Both the position numbers and the translations under genes were made by a program. A model generated the notes under the pieces. The model had not been told where the DNA came from. It was given only the letters and a program-made list of their open reading frames with translations, and made no database searches. From the NCBI GenBank assembly GCA_029068555.1, contig JAIECJ010000149.1:1-64000 (forward strand): 64,000 nucleotides of DNA, read 5' to 3'. This DNA is from Lachnospiraceae bacterium. GTDB taxonomy: Bacteria; Bacillota; Clostridia; Lachnospirales; Lachnospiraceae. Below, one piece after another: positions 1 to 42,664 of the stretch; positions within the stretch are counted from its first letter, which is position 1; every line of letters starts with the position of its first letter.

Positions 1-80
1 AGATTTTGCACACAAAATGCTAAAAGGCAAGCATTTTGGCGCATGATTCCCACTACTTTGGCGTAGGTGTGAACAGGAAC
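1..80 (+). repeat. Miniature inverted-repeat element, copy 1 (cut by window edge)
   Basis: These 80 bases match positions 3814-3893 of the complete copy at 3751-3893 with two differences. They include the internal hairpin AAAATGCT/AGCATTTT and the conserved right end TTGGCGTAGGTGTGAAC. The element would extend left of the window, so its other end and target duplication cannot be seen. It has no coding capacity. Confidence 0.8.
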
Positions 81-3750: not shown

Positions 3751-3893
3751 GTTACAATTCACACCAACGCCAGTTTTCATCAACTTATAAGTTATTGAGG
3801 TGTGAATTATAACAGATTTTGCACACAAAATGCTAAAAGGCAAGCATTTTGGCGCACGATTCCCACTACTTTGGCGTAGGTGTGAACAGTAAC
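3751..3893 (+). repeat. 143-bp miniature inverted-repeat element (MITE-like), copy 2, complete
   Basis: The ends are imperfect inverted repeats of about 22 bp; the left begins GTTACAATTCACACC and the right, read inward, begins GTTACTGTTCACACC. An 8-bp direct repeat TCAGCAGG flanks it exactly (3743-3750 and 3894-3901), as expected for a transposed element. The left 63 bp form a hairpin of their own (3751-3765 with 3799-3813), and a second hairpin (AAAATGCT/AGCATTTT) follows. The copy at 41787-41929 is identical apart from two bases. It has no ORF of note. The element separates the two candidate operators of the divergent LacI/isomerase promoter region. Confidence 0.85.
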
Positions 3894-33713: not shown

Positions 33714-35324
33714 ATGAAAATAAACCTGCAGGGAATTTCAGACAGAAAGCAGTGGGAGGAAAAGGGATTTGATCTTCCGCAGTATGATATCGCACAGATG
33801 AAAGAAGCGACAATGGAAAATCCGTTTTGGGTTCACTTTGGAGCCGGAAATTTATTTCGCGCATTTCACGCGTCAATTGCTCAGAAAATGCTGAATGAAG
33901 GCGTGCTTGACAGAGGAATTGTCGTTGCGGAGGGATTTGACTACGAAATTATAGAGAAAGTATATGTGCCGCATGATAATCTGGGAATTTCAATGACGTT
34001 AAGGGCAGACGGGACAGTCGGAAAAATGGTTATTGGAAGCGTTGCGGAGGCATTGCCGTTAGATTCGGATAATAGTGCCGCATATGCACGATTAAGGGAG
34101 ATTTTTGAAAAGGATTCCCTACAGATGGTCACCTTTACAATTACAGAAAAGGGCTATAGTCTGACAGACGCAAAAGGAGAATATTTGTCGGAGGTGTTGG
34201 ATGATTTTGCAAAAGGACCGGAAAAACCGGTAAGCTATATGGGAAAAGTGACAGCGCTGCTTTACGCGAGATTTTGTGCTGGCGAAAAACCTGTTGCAAT
34301 GGTCAGCACAGACAACTGCTCCCACAATGGGGACAGGTTATATGCGGCAGTTTTGGCCTTTGCAGAGGCATGGTCAGCAAACAAAAAGGTAGATACAGGA
34401 TTCCGGAAATATATTGATTCTGAAAAGGTCTCTTTTACTTGGAGTATGATTGATAAGATTACACCTAGACCAGACGCGGCTGTTGAAGAAATTTTAACCA
34501 AAGATGGTGTGGAGGGACTCGAACCTGTCATTACATCCCGAAAAACATATACTGCGCCCTTTGTGAATGCGGAGGAAACGGAATATCTTGTGATTGAGGA
34601 GAACTTCCCTAACGGAAGGCCAAGTCTGGAGGATGCCGGTGTTTTGTTTACCAATCGTGAAACAGTGGATAAAGTGGAGAAAATGAAAGTGTGCACCTGC
34701 CTGAATCCGCTGCATACCTGTCTTGCCATTTTTGGATGCCTGCTTGGCTATCGGAAAATTGCTGATGAGATGAGAGATGAGGCGCTTGTGAGGCTGGTGG
34801 AGGGAGTGGGATATCAAGAAGGACTCCCGGTAGTAGTCAATCCCGGTATTATTGATCCGAAGAAATTTCTTGATACGGTTTTAAACGTGCGGTTCCCAAA
34901 TCCGTTTATGCCGGATACGCCGCAGAGAATTGCGACAGATACCTCACAGAAACTGGCAATCCGGTTTGGGGAAACGCTCAGGGCATATGAGACGAGTGAT
35001 ACGCTGAAAGTAGAAAATTTACAGATGATACCGCTTGTGTACGCAGGGTGGCTGCGTTACCTGATGGCGGTGGATGATAAGGGTGAGCCATTTGATCCAA
35101 GTCCGGATCCGATGCTGGAGGAATTAAGGCCGCAGCTGGAAAAAATCAGACTTGGAGACAGGGATGTAGAAGCTGTCCTGCGTCCGATTATGGAAAATAC
35201 ACAGATATTTGGGGTGAATCTATATAAAACAGGTCTTGCCGAGAAAGTCTGTGGATACTTCAGGAAACTGAATACAGAACCAGGGGCAGTCCGAAGAACA
35301 TTGGATAAGCTGGGAACTTTCTAG
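33714..35324 (+). CDS. uxuB: Fructuronate reductase / mannonate oxidoreductase (mannitol dehydrogenase family)
   Basis: The 536-residue protein belongs to the polyol/uronate long-chain dehydrogenase family: an N-terminal nucleotide-binding domain with HFGAGNLFRAFHASI and a C-terminal helical domain (STDNCSHNGDRLY, CLNPLHTCLAIFG). Next to uxuA, NAD-dependent reduction of D-fructuronate to D-mannonate is the evident role. The start ATG at 33714 follows GGAGTG. It is the last gene of the xylan operon; a strong terminator follows at 35362. Confidence 0.9.
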   Translation: MKINLQGISDRKQWEEKGFDLPQYDIAQMKEATMENPFWVHFGAGNLFRAFHASIAQKMLNEGVLDRGIVVAEGFDYEIIEKVYVPHDNLGISMTLRADGTVGKMVIGSVAEALPLDSDNSAAYARLREIFEKDSLQMVTFTITEKGYSLTDAKGEYLSEVLDDFAKGPEKPVSYMGKVTALLYARFCAGEKPVAMVSTDNCSHNGDRLYAAVLAFAEAWSANKKVDTGFRKYIDSEKVSFTWSMIDKITPRPDAAVEEILTKDGVEGLEPVITSRKTYTAPFVNAEETEYLVIEENFPNGRPSLEDAGVLFTNRETVDKVEKMKVCTCLNPLHTCLAIFGCLLGYRKIADEMRDEALVRLVEGVGYQEGLPVVVNPGIIDPKKFLDTVLNVRFPNPFMPDTPQRIATDTSQKLAIRFGETLRAYETSDTLKVENLQMIPLVYAGWLRYLMAVDDKGEPFDPSPDPMLEELRPQLEKIRLGDRDVEAVLRPIMENTQIFGVNLYKTGLAEKVCGYFRKLNTEPGAVRRTLDKLGTF

Positions 35325-35361
35325 AGCGTGTTTCAAATACGCTCTTAGTGAAGCTTTTTGC

Positions 35362-35541: not shown

Positions 35542-38500
35542 ATGTTAAGGAACAAGGACAAAAGAATCATGGCGCTGATTCTTTCAGGCGTGTTACTTGC
35601 GGGGAGTTTGAATCCGATAACATCAAATGCCGCTGAAATTTCTGCGCAAACAGAAATTGCGGAGGAGGGCAGGACAGATGATGCCGGGGAAAAAGCGGAA
35701 GAAGGTTCAGAACCAGAGACAGACACGGACAGAAACAGTGCAGAACAAAGCACTGTGGAGGAAAGTACGGCCGGAGAAGGGACGATGGAGGAAAGTTCTA
35801 CGGACGGTGACACAACCGATGAGCGTCCTGTCGAAGATGACACGGTTGAAGAAAGAACGGACGAAGAGACTACAACAGAAGAAAGCAGCGTCAGCGAAGA
35901 GACGACAGAAGATGATGTGACAGAAACCAGTACAGAGGAAGATACACAGGAAGAGTGCATAGCGCTGGAGAGTGACCGGCAGATTTCAGCGAATATACTA
36001 AAAGACTATAATCCAAGCTTTGAGAACGGCACCGACAAAGCACTTGACTGGTGGAATGATTTATCATGGGGGCAGACATACATTGCTCGTGAGCATTATG
36101 AGGAAAGCGGGAATCCCACCCCAGAATGCGGGGATTATTATTTGGAAGTAATCCCGGATGCAGACAAAAAAAGCGGGGCACAGATTTGCCATGAAGATAT
36201 TGCAAAAATCATCAAGCCAGAGGTAACCTATGAGTTTACATATTTTGCAAAGCTATCGGATGGAATGGACAGCGGAGAAGTTCAGTTTCAGGTGACCAGT
36301 GCCAGTAAGGACTGGGAATCAAAAACAGCTGAAGTAAACTTGGACAGTGAAGTTGAACTTGAATCCGGTCAGTGGAAGCAGGTAAGCGGAACGTTTCAGA
36401 TACCAGCGTATGATAAGAATGAACAGGTTAAGATTGAGTTTTTGGGCTCAGAAGACCTTTCCTTCTGCATCGACGACCTGCGTGTGGCAGCCATTGACAA
36501 AGGCGATATTGAGTACGGCGATAATCTGGTGAAGAATCCATATTTTGCAGAGTCTGATTTATCCGTATGGGAGGCATCAAAGGGAGATGCAGACATAACG
36601 GCTGCAACAGCAGATGAAGCAATCTTTGATGATATCAATACATATGGTGTTATCGGGAACAGGACAAGCAGCTATGACTGTTTTGCACAGGATATGACAG
36701 CAGTGATTCAATCAGGTAATTCGTATGAATATTCCTTCTATGTTATGCTGGATGCCGATGACTATAAGGATGCGCCTCCCGAGCAAAGGGAAGTATCCTT
36801 TGCGCCATATGTGACTGTTGAAGGCGAAAGTACTTATTGGGGATCCCATAATTCAGGGATACTGGACAGCGGATGTATCAAGAAGATTCCGGCAGGAGAG
36901 TGGGTAAAATTTGAGGGAAGCTTCAATCCAAAATTTGAGGGAGAGGCAGAGAAGCTTATCATCAGGATTTTGGAACAGGGTACAAACTACGGAAACGGCG
37001 ATTGCGTAAAAGGCAGATATTATGTCACAGGTGTCACCATTCATGAGGTTAAGAAGCCTGTCAAGGAGATTGAGTGGGATATCCCAAATCTAAAGGATAC
37101 GGTTTCTGGTAAAGATGGAATCGGCTCAGATGCCTACACAGGCGCATTGCTCACTGTTTCGGATCTGTCGGATAAACCGCTGATGGATTTGGTCCAGAAA
37201 CATTTCAATGCAGTTACATTTGAGAATGAGTTGAAAATGGATGCCCTGTTTGGCTACCATGACAACAATAATTCGGCTCCGGGATTTGATACGATCACAT
37301 GGACGCGTGCAGACGGCACAGAGATGAAAGATTACAAGGTTCCGCAGCTCGATTACAGTAGGGCAGAAAAGATACTGGATGCGCTCAAGGTATGGAATAA
37401 AGATCATCCGGACAGCGTCATCAAAGTTAGAGGACATGTTTTGGTATGGCATTCACAGGCTCCGGAATGGTTTTTCCGTGAGGACTGGGACATTAATAAA
37501 CCTGATGTCAGCCCTGCGGTCATGGATGCACGTCAGGAGTGGTATATAAAAACGGTTCTTGAGCATTTTACAGGGGACAGCAGCCCATACAAGGGGATGT
37601 TCTACGGATGGGATGTTGTAAATGAGGCAGTCAGCGATAGTACAGGCACTTACAGGCATGAAGATGAAAAATCAAGCTGGTGGCGGGTATACAAGAGCGA
37701 GGATTTTATTGTAAATGCATTTCGTTATGCCAATTACTATGCGCCGTCAGAACTTGAACTTTATTATAATGATTACAATGAGTGCGTGGGAAGCAAGGTA
37801 CCTGGTATCGAAAAGTTGTTAAAAGAAGTAAAATCCCATGAAGCTGATGACAAGCTTCCGACAAGGATATCCGCTATGGGAATGCAGTCGCACCATACGG
37901 TTTCTTCCCCGACAGTCAATCAGATCAGGGATGCCGCGGTAAGGTACGGAAAGATTGTCGGCAAGGTACAGCTCACAGAGCTTGATCTCAAGGCAAGCGA
38001 TGATTTTGACGGGACAGATGCCACGCTCCAGAATGAGTATACAAAGCAGGCATACAGATATAAGGAAATCTATGATGTCATGCGTGAGGTTGACGCGATG
38101 GATGACATTGATGTCAACGGAATAACGATATGGGGCGTAATAGACGGGAATTCATGGCTTCAGGAGGGCAGCGATGTCGGTGGCGGAGCGGACGGAAGCA
38201 AGAGACAGGTTCCGCTGCTTTTTGATGACGATTATAAGGCAAAGCCTTCCTTCTATGCGTTTGTAAACGCTGATAAATTAGAGCCATACATCCGCAGTGT
38301 CACTGTCATGCAGGCGGCAGAGGAAGATCCGTATGCCAACGGAAAAACTTATGGGATTCAGGGAATAGATGCTGCATTCATTCCCGTCTGGACGGATACG
38401 GAATTGAAAGTGCAGGTAACGGTTTTTGACACGACAGTGAGTGAAGATGATGCAGTCAGGCTGTATATAGACTGGAATAAGTCTGCGTCGGAAAGTACGG

Positions 38501-41500
38501 CAGTCACACCGATCACAAAGAACAGGTCAGAGAGTCAGGCACAGGAAGGCGGATATGTGGCAGAGTTTGTAGTTTCGCGGGATCTTATGCCATCGGTAGG
38601 CTTTCGCATGGATGTGGTTGTTTCAGACAATGGGCAGAACTACGCCTTTAATGACATGACCATGAATCAGGACACAGGAAGTAAATATTACGCTTCGGCA
38701 ATCACCAAGCCTTATATGACCATCGCCGGAGTCGGCAGTGACATTATCAAAGTGGACGGTGAAAAGGAAGCTGTGTGGGATCAGGCAAAGGAAATCGACT
38801 TTCAGATAAGGACAGGTTCCGCAAAGGCATCAGCTTCCGCAAGGCTTTTGTGGGACAAGCAGTATCTGTATGTGCTTGCAGATGTGACAGATCCGGTGCT
38901 TGACAAGACTTCTACGGCAGAGCATGAGCAGGATTCCCTCGAAGTGTTTATAGATGAAAATAACCATAAGTCGGATTCCTATGAGGAGGATGATAAACAG
39001 TATCGGGTGAACTATGCAAATGAACAGAGCTTTAACGGACAGAAATGTAACGCAGACAACATTTTGTCTAAAGCTGTGGAGACAGACAAAGGTTATCGGA
39101 TTGAAGCCGCTTATAAATGGACAGATATCACACCGGCATTGGGAAATAAAATTGGGATTGATTTGCAAATTAATGATGCGGAAGGCGGGACACGAATCGG
39201 AACAGTCAGCTGGTATGACGAGTCCGGACAGGGCTGGACGTCAACAGGTGTATTTGGCACCGCGACACTGGGAGATTTGATCAAGACACCTGATTTGGAT
39301 ATAAGGGAAGAGCTGAACAGTTTAATCAGTGATTGCGAAAATTTCTTAAAAGACGCAAAAGAAGAAGATTATACACCGGAGACATGGACGGCTTTTATAG
39401 AAGCGCTTGAAGCTGCCAAAACTGTTTGGGGAAATGAGGAGGCAGCGCCGGAAACAGTTGAAGCAGCATATGATGCGCTTGCGGAAGCACGGATAGCATT
39501 GAAGCCAAGTACTAAGACAGAAACACCGGCAGAAAAGGAACTAAGAAATCTGATTGCCGAATGCGAAATGCTGAAAAAAGAGGAGTATACAGACGAGAGC
39601 TGGGTTCCGTTTGCAACGGCAATGGAAGAAGCAAAAGCAGTACTGGCAAATCCGGATGCGCCACAAGAAGAAGTGCAAAAAGCTTTGGATGCATTGAAGG
39701 ATGCAAAGGCAAAATTGCAAAAAACAGATGAATCAGAACCAATCAGCAAAGACCAGCTGAAAGAACTGATCGAAAAATGCGAAGAACGAAATCCGAATGA
39801 CTATACAAAGGAAAGCTGGGCGTTTTATGAAAAGGCACTCGCAGATGCAAAGGCAGTGTTGGAAAATGCGGCAGCAACGCAGGAAGATGTGCAGACAGCG
39901 GCAGCAAGGCTGTCAGAGGCCCTGAGTCAGCTGAAAGAAAGAGAAGGTCTCTGGGCATTTGATATCAGCGATATCACATACACCGGAAAGGCATTGAAGC
40001 CGGCGGTGACTGTGTATGACGGCAGGACATTGCTGGCGCTGGGCAAAGATTACACAGTGACTTACAAGAATAACACAAAGCCGACAGAGAGAGCAGAGGC
40101 AGTTATTAAGGGAAAAGGAAATTATGCCGGAAGCATCACGAAAACCTTTAAGATTGTCCCGAAGGATTTGACTGACGAAGATATTACGGTTCCAGATCTC
40201 TATGTCAAGGCGCCAAAGCCGGGCAGGAATGTCACGGTGGCGCCGACCGTGACGAGAAACGGTAAAAAATTGGCGAAGAAAGAGTTCACCGTAGATAGTA
40301 TTAAGGATAAGACAGGCAGCAATGTAGAGCGTGTGACAGAACCGGGTACATATACCGTGGCAGTCAAGGGTGTGGATGCGAACGGCTACACCGGAAGCAA
40401 AGAAATTCAGTTGGTAGTATTGAACAACGAGCAGGTGCTCATGAGTGCGGTAAAGGTGACAGGTATTCAGAACAAAGTGTATACAGGCGATAAAATCGTA
40501 CCTGAATTTACTGTGAAATATGGAAATCATACACTGGTACCCAATCAGGATTATCAGGTTACCTGTGACAGCACGGAGATAGGCACCGCGACAGCAGTCA
40601 TTAAGGGCATTGGGGAAACCTATGTCGGTGAAAAGACAGTCACCTTTAAGATTACAGGCATTGCGTTAAAGGCAAAGGATGTGACGCTGGAAAATGCTGT
40701 GAATTTATCTTACACTGGAAATGAGATAAAGCCGGCTGTGAAGATTGCAGGCGCAGAGCAGGGCCGTGATTTTACAGTGGCATATGACAAAAATGTTAAG
40801 GCAGGTACTGCTTCTGTGACTATAAAGGGTATCGGAAAATATACTGGAACAGTAAAGAAAACATTTAAAATCGCGCCCTTTGATATCCAGAAGAATCCGG
40901 AAGGTAAGCTGGGCTATAATACTGCTGACATTATAGTGCCTTATATGAAAGGCGGCAGTAAGCTAAACGAAACAGACCTAAAAGCAGTCTTTAACGGCCA
41001 AAATCTGATAGAAGGCGTAGACTATACGATGGTCTATTCAGGCAACAAGAAGCTTGACACAGCCACCGTCAAGATAAAGGGAAAGGGAAATTTCAAGGGA
41101 ACAACGGAGCCGATTAGCTTTACGATTGTCCCACAGGATATTGCCAATCTGACAAATATTATCCTATCAGATGTTACAAAAAAGAATGCAAGGAAATACA
41201 GTAATGTGAATCTGACCATCAAAGATTTTGATGGGAAGCCCTTGAAAAAGGGGACAGATTACAAAGTTACATACACAAAGCAGGACGGCACGACACCGAT
41301 AGAGGGAACGCCCAATGTGGGTGATGTCATCCGTGCGACAGTTGAAGGTATCAATTGTTACAGAGGTACTACTTATATGGAGTTTAGGATCATAGAGGAC
41401 AGCGTGGATATCTCAAAGGCAAAAGTAAAGGTGGAGCCGCAGAGTTATACCGGAAAGGAAATCACGTTGTCAGAGATGGATCCCGCTACAGGAAAACAGC

Positions 41501-41757
41501 AGATTTTTGTCACGATGAAAATAGGCGGCGAGGACAAGCTGCTCAGGGAAGGGGAAGACTATGAGATTGTGAAGAATGGATATTCTAAGAATATTTACAA
41601 AGGCACCGGAAAGATGACTATCAGAGGAATCAACGGATATGGTGGGATAAAGACGGTTTCCTTTAAGATTAAGGCACAAAATCTGGATCGTGTTGTATGG
41701 TATGAAAACCTATATAAATGGTCAATGTCATGGTACCGTGAAAATTTTAGCAGATAG
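35542..41757 (+). CDS. Giant secreted modular GH10 endo-1,4-beta-xylanase
   Basis: The 2071 residues read, in order: signal peptide (1-30, cleavage near SNAA); an acidic S/T/E-rich linker (35-148); two CBM22/CBM4-9-type modules (150-316, 327-500); a GH10 barrel (513-907) with acid/base E695 in WDVVNEAV and nucleophile E813 in QLTELDL; two CBM9-type modules (930-1053, 1058-1247); three FIVAR helical repeats (1258-1470); about six Ig/MBG-like repeats (1472-2050); and an aromatic tail (WYENLYKWSMSWYRENF). It should cut xylan outside the cell. No LPXTG, SLH or membrane anchor is visible, so wall attachment may come from the repeats. AAGGAGG precedes the ATG. It is monocistronic, between a terminator at 35362 and one at 41771. 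Confidence 0.9.
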   Translation: MLRNKDKRIMALILSGVLLAGSLNPITSNAAEISAQTEIAEEGRTDDAGEKAEEGSEPETDTDRNSAEQSTVEESTAGEGTMEESSTDGDTTDERPVEDDTVEERTDEETTTEESSVSEETTEDDVTETSTEEDTQEECIALESDRQISANILKDYNPSFENGTDKALDWWNDLSWGQTYIAREHYEESGNPTPECGDYYLEVIPDADKKSGAQICHEDIAKIIKPEVTYEFTYFAKLSDGMDSGEVQFQVTSASKDWESKTAEVNLDSEVELESGQWKQVSGTFQIPAYDKNEQVKIEFLGSEDLSFCIDDLRVAAIDKGDIEYGDNLVKNPYFAESDLSVWEASKGDADITAATADEAIFDDINTYGVIGNRTSSYDCFAQDMTAVIQSGNSYEYSFYVMLDADDYKDAPPEQREVSFAPYVTVEGESTYWGSHNSGILDSGCIKKIPAGEWVKFEGSFNPKFEGEAEKLIIRILEQGTNYGNGDCVKGRYYVTGVTIHEVKKPVKEIEWDIPNLKDTVSGKDGIGSDAYTGALLTVSDLSDKPLMDLVQKHFNAVTFENELKMDALFGYHDNNNSAPGFDTITWTRADGTEMKDYKVPQLDYSRAEKILDALKVWNKDHPDSVIKVRGHVLVWHSQAPEWFFREDWDINKPDVSPAVMDARQEWYIKTVLEHFTGDSSPYKGMFYGWDVVNEAVSDSTGTYRHEDEKSSWWRVYKSEDFIVNAFRYANYYAPSELELYYNDYNECVGSKVPGIEKLLKEVKSHEADDKLPTRISAMGMQSHHTVSSPTVNQIRDAAVRYGKIVGKVQLTELDLKASDDFDGTDATLQNEYTKQAYRYKEIYDVMREVDAMDDIDVNGITIWGVIDGNSWLQEGSDVGGGADGSKRQVPLLFDDDYKAKPSFYAFVNADKLEPYIRSVTVMQAAEEDPYANGKTYGIQGIDAAFIPVWTDTELKVQVTVFDTTVSEDDAVRLYIDWNKSASESTAVTPITKNRSESQAQEGGYVAEFVVSRDLMPSVGFRMDVVVSDNGQNYAFNDMTMNQDTGSKYYASAITKPYMTIAGVGSDIIKVDGEKEAVWDQAKEIDFQIRTGSAKASASARLLWDKQYLYVLADVTDPVLDKTSTAEHEQDSLEVFIDENNHKSDSYEEDDKQYRVNYANEQSFNGQKCNADNILSKAVETDKGYRIEAAYKWTDITPALGNKIGIDLQINDAEGGTRIGTVSWYDESGQGWTSTGVFGTATLGDLIKTPDLDIREELNSLISDCENFLKDAKEEDYTPETWTAFIEALEAAKTVWGNEEAAPETVEAAYDALAEARIALKPSTKTETPAEKELRNLIAECEMLKKEEYTDESWVPFATAMEEAKAVLANPDAPQEEVQKALDALKDAKAKLQKTDESEPISKDQLKELIEKCEERNPNDYTKESWAFYEKALADAKAVLENAAATQEDVQTAAARLSEALSQLKEREGLWAFDISDITYTGKALKPAVTVYDGRTLLALGKDYTVTYKNNTKPTERAEAVIKGKGNYAGSITKTFKIVPKDLTDEDITVPDLYVKAPKPGRNVTVAPTVTRNGKKLAKKEFTVDSIKDKTGSNVERVTEPGTYTVAVKGVDANGYTGSKEIQLVVLNNEQVLMSAVKVTGIQNKVYTGDKIVPEFTVKYGNHTLVPNQDYQVTCDSTEIGTATAVIKGIGETYVGEKTVTFKITGIALKAKDVTLENAVNLSYTGNEIKPAVKIAGAEQGRDFTVAYDKNVKAGTASVTIKGIGKYTGTVKKTFKIAPFDIQKNPEGKLGYNTADIIVPYMKGGSKLNETDLKAVFNGQNLIEGVDYTMVYSGNKKLDTATVKIKGKGNFKGTTEPISFTIVPQDIANLTNIILSDVTKKNARKYSNVNLTIKDFDGKPLKKGTDYKVTYTKQDGTTPIEGTPNVGDVIRATVEGINCYRGTTYMEFRIIEDSVDISKAKVKVEPQSYTGKEITLSEMDPATGKQQIFVTMKIGGEDKLLREGEDYEIVKNGYSKNIYKGTGKMTIRGINGYGGIKTVSFKIKAQNLDRVVWYENLYKWSMSWYRENFSR

Positions 41758-41770
41758 ATGCATAAATATG

Positions 41771-41955
41771 AACAAGGGGCTGTCATGTTACTGTTCACAC
41801 CTACGCCAAAGTAGTGGGAATCATGCGCCAAAATGCTTGCCTTTTAGCATTTTGTGTGCAAAATCTGTTATAATTCACACCTCAATAACTTATAAGCTGA
41901 TGAAAACTGGCGTTGGTGTGAATTGTAACGCTGTCATCGCGGCCCCTGTTTTTTT
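41771..41955 (+). terminator. Xylanase terminator interrupted by a miniature element
   Basis: If the element at 41787-41929 and one copy of its 8-bp target duplication are removed, the flanks join into AACAAGGGGC, a short loop, then GCCCCTGTT and a run of T. That is a normal intrinsic terminator with one bulged A. The element therefore sits in the loop and splits the stem by 151 bp. Whether the terminator still works is unknown. The T run lies at 41949-41955. Confidence 0.7.
41787..41929 (-). repeat. 143-bp miniature inverted-repeat element (MITE-like), copy 3, complete
   Basis: It is inverted relative to the copy at 3751-3893 and differs from it at only two bases, so the two are recent relatives. 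It starts GTTACTGTTCACACC and ends GGTGTGAATTGTAAC. The 8-bp direct repeat GCTGTCAT flanks it exactly (41779-41786 and 41930-41937). It has no coding capacity. Confidence 0.88.
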
Positions 41956-41963
41956 GATACTTT

Positions 41964-42151
41964 TCAGCCCTTGTTAAATCCGGCGTCCTCACATATAATA
42001 GAGATATAGGTTGGCGTACTGTCCAGTGCATATTCAGGCAGACTTGTTTTCCTGATAACACATGTGAAATTCTTCCTGTCGGTGTACTGAGCGTGTAAGC
42101 CGTACAGCTGCGTGATTGAGAAGGCAGCGAAATAGAGATGCTTATGATAAA
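41964..42151 (-). pseudogene. Possible 3' remnant of a minus-strand gene
   Basis: One minus-strand frame stays open for about 60 codons and ends with a TGA at 41964-41966. It reads like protein (for example FSITQLYGLHAQYTDRKNF), and its last residues (YISIICEDAGFN) faintly recall the first half of an AraC helix-turn-helix. There is no start codon with a ribosome site, and the frame runs into the GNAT promoter region. It is either decay debris or a chance open stretch. Apart from this, the terminator and the element, the 436-bp gap before 42194 shows nothing. Confidence 0.25.
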
Positions 42152-42193: not shown

Positions 42194-42664
42194 ATGATTA
42201 TAGTCAGAAATGCGCAGAGACAGGAATTAGAGCGCGTTAATGAAATGCGCAGAATGGTGAATGATGTCCATGTCAGCGGTCGGCCGGATGTGTTTCGTGA
42301 GAACTTTTGTGATGAACTTAGGCAGCATATATATGATAAATATGATGCCTGTGATTCGGATGTCCTGGTTGCGGTGGCAGATGAAGTAGTTTGCGGGTTT
42401 GCCATTGTGGAATATATCGAAAGACCCCAGTCCGCATATATTAATTCCCGGCGGTTTTACCATGTCAAGGAGTTCGGCGTGGATGAAAAGTATAGAAGAA
42501 AAGGTGTTGCAACAGCGCTTATTTCATTTATGAAAGACGATGCAAGGAAGATGGGATTTCATAAGATGGAACTGGATATGTGGGAATTTAATGATGGGGC
42601 ATTGGCCTTCTATGAAAATGTAGGTTTCAAAACATACCGCAGGTATATGGAAATGGAGTGTTAA
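42194..42664 (+). CDS. GNAT-family N-acetyltransferase
   Basis: The 156-residue protein has the GNAT core. The acetyl-CoA loop is EFGVDEKYRRKGVATALISF (residues 95-114), followed by the C-terminal MWEFNDGALAFYENVGFKTYRRYMEM typical of the family. GGAGGGA lies nine bases before the ATG. It stands alone between the xylanase and the phosphorylase operon and ends at a terminator at 42701. The substrate is unknown; nothing ties it to polysaccharide use. Confidence 0.85.
   Translation: MIIVRNAQRQELERVNEMRRMVNDVHVSGRPDVFRENFCDELRQHIYDKYDACDSDVLVAVADEVVCGFAIVEYIERPQSAYINSRRFYHVKEFGVDEKYRRKGVATALISFMKDDARKMGFHKMELDMWEFNDGALAFYENVGFKTYRRYMEMEC

Follow-up and report, generated by a model that had tools for sequence, protein, structure and literature searches.

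A giant xylanase gene with an interrupted terminator

What becomes of an intrinsic terminator when a mobile element lands between the two arms of its stem, and what kind of element does so? We addressed this question at a locus within a 64,000-nucleotide stretch of Lachnospiraceae DNA (hereinafter, the window). Here, a plus-strand gene taken from the list of open reading frames (35542-41757) encodes a giant secreted protein of 2071 amino acids, denoted xylanase-type after an earlier reading of the sequence, and the terminator that follows this gene, also on the plus strand, consists of a 5' arm, AACAAGGGGC (41771-41780), and a 3' arm, GCCCCTGTT (41942-41950), with a T run continuing to 41955. 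The two arms pair with each other in both the MFE structure and the ensemble, and are separated by a 143-bp MITE (41787-41929, plus strand). The MITE is flanked by two exact copies of the octamer GCTGTCAT (41779-41786 and 41930-41937), that is, by an 8-bp target-site duplication, and is bounded by 22-bp imperfect inverted repeats which are 86% complementary, namely GTTACTGTTCACACCTACGCCA on the left (41787-41808) and, on the minus strand, the repeat with the reverse complement GTTACAATTCACACCAACGCCA on the right (41908-41929). An internal copy of the right-end repeat (41866-41881, with GTTATAATTCACACC at 41867-41881) can pair with the right end, yielding a smaller inner hairpin. The element has no coding capacity, the sole ORF of at least 80 amino acids across it being an overlapping frame of 95 amino acids with its start within the xylanase gene, and an Rfam search produced no match. 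The next gene downstream (42194-42664, plus strand) encodes a GNAT-family acetyltransferase (Pfam Acetyltransf_1, E 5.9e-16).

The first-pass annotation of this DNA had proposed that a 143-bp element with 8-bp repeats interrupts the xylanase terminator and that removal of the element together with one repeat rebuilds the latter. Every part of this arrangement is present, and the joined site, AACAAGGGGCTGTCATCGCGGCCCCTGTTTTTTT (also written AAGGGGCTGTCATCGCGGCCCC), folds at -16.9 kcal/mol as a compact intrinsic terminator with a 12-pair stem, one bulge and a T run located directly after the G+C-rich stem-loop. The distance between the arms is 161 nt now compared to 10 nt without the element. 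The placement of the insertion in the loop requires a correction: the terminator hairpin is indeed interrupted, but the duplicated octamer spans the upper 5' arm as well as the loop, so that the insertion point is the upper stem and loop rather than strictly the loop.

Genomic copies of the element and its distribution

The source genome is a draft assembly of 4.14 Mb in 242 contigs. Using the 143-bp sequence as the query for a search of this genome, we identified, among the matches scored, 40 full-length or near-full-length copies, 17 of them identical over the whole length; 17 of the 59 complete copies are identical. The 22-base end pattern has 268 matches in the genome with both ends counted, compared to a single match for the reversed control pattern, and a left-end-specific pattern has 135 matches compared to none for the control. 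Because numerous contig ends fall within copies, double counting of some of these is possible, and we put the actual number at about 100-135. Among the 59 complete copies for which both flanks are present, 43 are bracketed by exact 8-bp duplications, and in several others the two octamers differ at one or two positions. Given this copy number and the recurrence of exact octamers, chance is excluded as the source of the element. The 57 full-length copies differ from one another by 3 bases on average, and this near-identity points to a recent burst of amplification. The family also includes length variants, namely a shorter, 113-bp form and a longer form of about 158 bp.

The window contains a second full copy (3751-3893, minus strand) with the 8-bp duplication TCAGCAGG (plus strand), and the contig starts inside a further copy, the left end of which is located at 59-80 (minus strand). 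At two other loci (L079, 84-377, and L080, 2955-3182), the MITEs are head-to-tail neighbors, with a start-to-start distance of 151 bp and a single octamer, common to both copies, between them, which suggests either repeated insertion at the same site or duplication of the site. A separate short repeat, AGAGCGTGTTTGAAAAA, is represented with its variants at positions 193-209 and 35323-35345 of the window (up to 2 mismatches) and has 43 matches in the examined MITE loci (up to 1 mismatch, with overlapping loci counted repeatedly), often beside the copies.

Across the analyzed genomes, the MITE is present in 12 of the 23 congeners (13 of 40 genomes including the source genome) and was found in none of the 16 genomes from outside the genus. 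The plasmid and phage sequence collections yielded no copies; a pattern match in a viral contig (L112) lies inside a coding region that lacks the element and appears to be due to chance.

Age of the insertion

The search with the xylanase sequence identified orthologs in three congeners (78-82% identity) and thereby reached the orthologous sites, which GNAT-based synteny searches had failed to reach. The comparison of these sites is one of congeners, with a single genome per species in the collection. In one of these (G049), an uninterrupted terminator, AAAAGGGGCTGTCGGGAAATAGACAGCCCCTGAACTTTTTT, with a predicted folding energy of -21.6 kcal/mol, is located shortly 3' of the xylanase ortholog and shares with the window site a 5' segment, AAGGGGCTGTC, and a 3' segment, GCCCCTG. 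With this core uninterrupted at the same place, the sequence comparison supports the order of events held by the first-pass annotation: the insertion most likely postdates the terminator. The corollary of that claim, namely that relatives without the element should possess the joined terminator, agrees with the uninterrupted terminator of the same core in G049; the xylanase ortholog in G023 is followed by a different terminator, and downstream of the ortholog in G040 no terminator is evident. The GNAT gene, which in the window lies between the xylanase gene and the GH94 gene, is missing from this position in G049, in which the GH94 ortholog comes directly after the terminator of the xylanase gene.

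Effect on termination and downstream transcription

With the element in place, the region is predicted to fold into one long hairpin (-68.9 kcal/mol, z -5.3) in which the terminator base is followed by an internal loop that includes part of the right duplicate and then by the element itself. The basal stem has a pairing probability of 1.0 in local folds and 0.83-0.98 when 300-600 nt of upstream context are included. In folds of successively longer transcripts, the ends of the MITE are already zipped before the 3' arm emerges, and, relative to the prefolded element, completion of the 3' side brings a gain of about 16.6 kcal/mol, compared to 16.9 kcal/mol for the empty terminator. These results agree with the suggestion of the first-pass annotation that the stem can still form as part of a long composite structure. 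Among shuffled inserts of equal length, however, 97% also keep the basal stem at equilibrium; thus, thermodynamics alone is no proof that the palindrome rescues the terminator, and we abandoned the view that the stem is preserved solely when the insert is palindromic. By itself, the right half forms only a weak hairpin (-4.7 kcal/mol); this hairpin, which stops some bases short of the T run, is a potential competitor of the full stem. Equilibrium folding ignores the time that transcription takes, and both kinetic effects and this competing hairpin could lower the efficiency of termination. On balance, it appears more likely that termination is retained than that it is lost.

Should the insertion have destroyed the terminator, transcription of the xylanase gene would run into the GNAT and GH94 genes and produce a new operon-like transcript. 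This scenario draws on the wide separation of the arms and on the competing hairpin that stops short of the T run, but we consider it rather unlikely because the basal stem beside the T run is kept with a probability of 0.83-1.0 in the folds and because the GNAT gene is preceded by a candidate promoter of its own. The latter, a sigma-70-type motif (TTGTTA, 17 nt, TATAAT; 41971-41999, plus strand), lies downstream of the terminator and is preserved, with the same spacing, 3' of the xylanase ortholog in G040. Taken as a class, promoter-like sites are not enriched here relative to shuffled sequence, so that it is the conservation that supports this candidate. With such a promoter, readthrough would not be the only source of GNAT expression and would matter less than the first-pass annotation suggested.

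The element itself carries a perfect extended -10 motif, TGT-TATAAT (41866-41874, plus strand), which is kept in 55 of the 59 copies and is present in most of the congener loci inspected. Hence the idea that the MITE is mainly a portable promoter which drives outward transcription toward the GNAT gene. The motif, however, is accompanied by no convincing -35 hexamer, was not listed by the promoter scan of the region, and belongs to the internal copy of the end repeat, so that it may be retained for transposition alone; we would therefore give a promoter role as the main function of the element only a small chance.

Relationship to IS66-type insertion sequences

In the search for a parent of the MITE, we identified a full element in the genome of the congener G023. 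In this genome, inverted GTTACTTTTCACACCCACGCCA ends are located 2.3 kb apart, with the 8-bp duplication AAGAATAG on both sides, and enclose genes for a 573-aa protein containing a DDE_Tnp_IS66 domain (Pfam PF03050, E 3.1e-13) and for a 69-aa ORF product for which the family search gave no match. Of the tnpA, tnpB and tnpC set, only the tnpC-type transposase is recognizable in this element. The transposase scores 130 bits against the NCBIfam IS66 model, below the cut-off of 180, which makes it a divergent IS66 member. The left inverted repeat of the MITE is identical to the end of the G023 element in 20 of 22 bases; over the first 38 bases the two sequences align at 82% and over the last 27 at 85%, the similarity being confined to the ends. 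Other IS66-type transposases in the congeners are located between GTTAC..TTCAC ends as well, one of them with an 8-bp duplication, TATCAATA. Because its ends match those of a full 2.3-kb IS66-type element, the MITE is best interpreted as IS66-derived, with the parent-like element found in a congener rather than in the source genome. Some relatives of IS66, the compact members, lack tnpA and tnpB, and because the G023 element does so too, we limit the assignment to "IS66-type". A further element of about 980 bp in another congener (L122, 805-1787 in G016:C58) has IS66-type ends, and of its transposase gene only the two terminal portions are left; it is a plausible intermediate, and possibly represents a stage on the path from the parent element to the MITE.

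In the source genome, we found no IS66-type element with matching ends, but only an unrelated IS66 transposase fragment (C223) without such ends. Accordingly, the mobilizing enzyme was lost, is missing from the draft assembly, or is a different one, and because no such transposase is present in this genome, mobilization by an IS66-type enzyme is something we infer. An 8-bp target duplication, as observed here, has been described for the IS66 members ISPpa5a and ISPpa7 (PMC3281130). The length of the duplication led us to consider also an IS256 origin; no PF00872 transposase was identified in the source genome. More generally, the element might descend from some other family with an 8-bp duplication and share the IS66-type ends by chance, a possibility that gains something from the absence of a full parent in the source genome, the score of the G023 transposase below the family cut-off and the restriction of the similarity to the ends. 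Nevertheless, the match extends beyond the terminal bases into the subterminal sequence, the duplications are equal in length, several IS66-type transposases of the genus have the same ends, and the search of the source genome for an IS256-type transposase was negative; a non-IS66 origin thus appears quite improbable.

Choice of target

Joining the flanks at the 52 copies with a recognizable duplication reconstructed a credible terminator spanning the insertion point at only one, the xylanase site; one further terminator match among these sites is weak and has a poor T run. Only 5 of 41 insertions are in ORFs of at least 120 amino acids, although such ORFs cover 71% of the flanking DNA, and, apart from A+T richness, no consensus is discernible among the duplicated octamers. 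Genes are either avoided by the MITE family or cleared of its copies, and terminators are not its target. One could imagine that a palindromic MITE in a terminator loop merely produces a longer hairpin with the basal stem closed, so that the family occupies terminators at little cost and turns them into weaker, adjustable ones that couple the xylanase gene to the downstream genes; we regard this as a speculation with very little likelihood. That the element prefers terminator hairpins as targets, as some elements prefer palindromes, is suggested by the xylanase site itself and contradicted by the genome-wide survey of the sites and octamers, and can be dismissed as extremely improbable.

A model of the insertion and its implications

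Taken together, these considerations lead to the following model. In a single transposition event, mobilized in trans by a transposase similar to that of G023, a non-autonomous IS66-type MITE would have entered the pre-existing xylanase terminator at its upper stem and loop, generating the 8-bp duplication. Its arrival in a terminator would simply reflect the general preference of the family for intergenic DNA. Pairing of the ends of the MITE would bring the arms of the terminator together and, because the arms are thus united, the basal GGGGC/GCCCC stem beside the T run would still form, and most of the termination activity would be preserved, although the efficiency might be slightly lower. 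We consider this account likely: the history of the insertion has good support, and termination is more probably retained than lost.

The case of the xylanase site is an ordinary mobile-element insertion, with the MITE behaving as MITEs do. It is also a natural experiment on how far the arms of an intrinsic terminator can be separated and still function, with the uninterrupted version available in a congener. The wider survey shows that an IS66-type MITE has recently multiplied on a large scale across a single bacterial genus. The copies break draft assemblies, many contig ends being located inside them, and will confuse annotation. A search of the open-access literature returned no report of IS66-derived MITEs or of MITEs inside terminators, which is not proof of absence; apparently, this genus-wide family has not been described so far.

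Comparison with known systems

The window element shares with the IS66-family insertion sequences the 8-bp duplication and inverted ends of about 22 bp, with the DDE_Tnp_IS66 transposase contributed by the G023 element, and differs from them in its size of 143 bp and its lack of coding capacity. The ends of classical IS66 elements begin with GTAA, whereas the present ones begin with GTTAC, and the gene content of the parent-like G023 element is limited to a transposase and one small ORF. Like the Correia elements, ERIC and MITECca01, the MITE described here is short, non-coding, mostly intergenic and present in a number of copies that in such families often exceeds 100; it differs from these in its ends and in the parental family, which for MITECca01 is IS982. 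Internal promoter-like motifs, such as the one in the window element, are known in high-copy bacterial MITEs (PMC10969869, PMC9769881). A parallel with respect to termination is SPRITE of Streptococcus pneumoniae, a repeat associated with a Rho-independent terminator (PMC10969869): SPRITE and other terminator-like pneumococcal repeats carry the terminator-like sequence themselves, whereas at the xylanase locus a terminator of the host gene is interrupted by the element.
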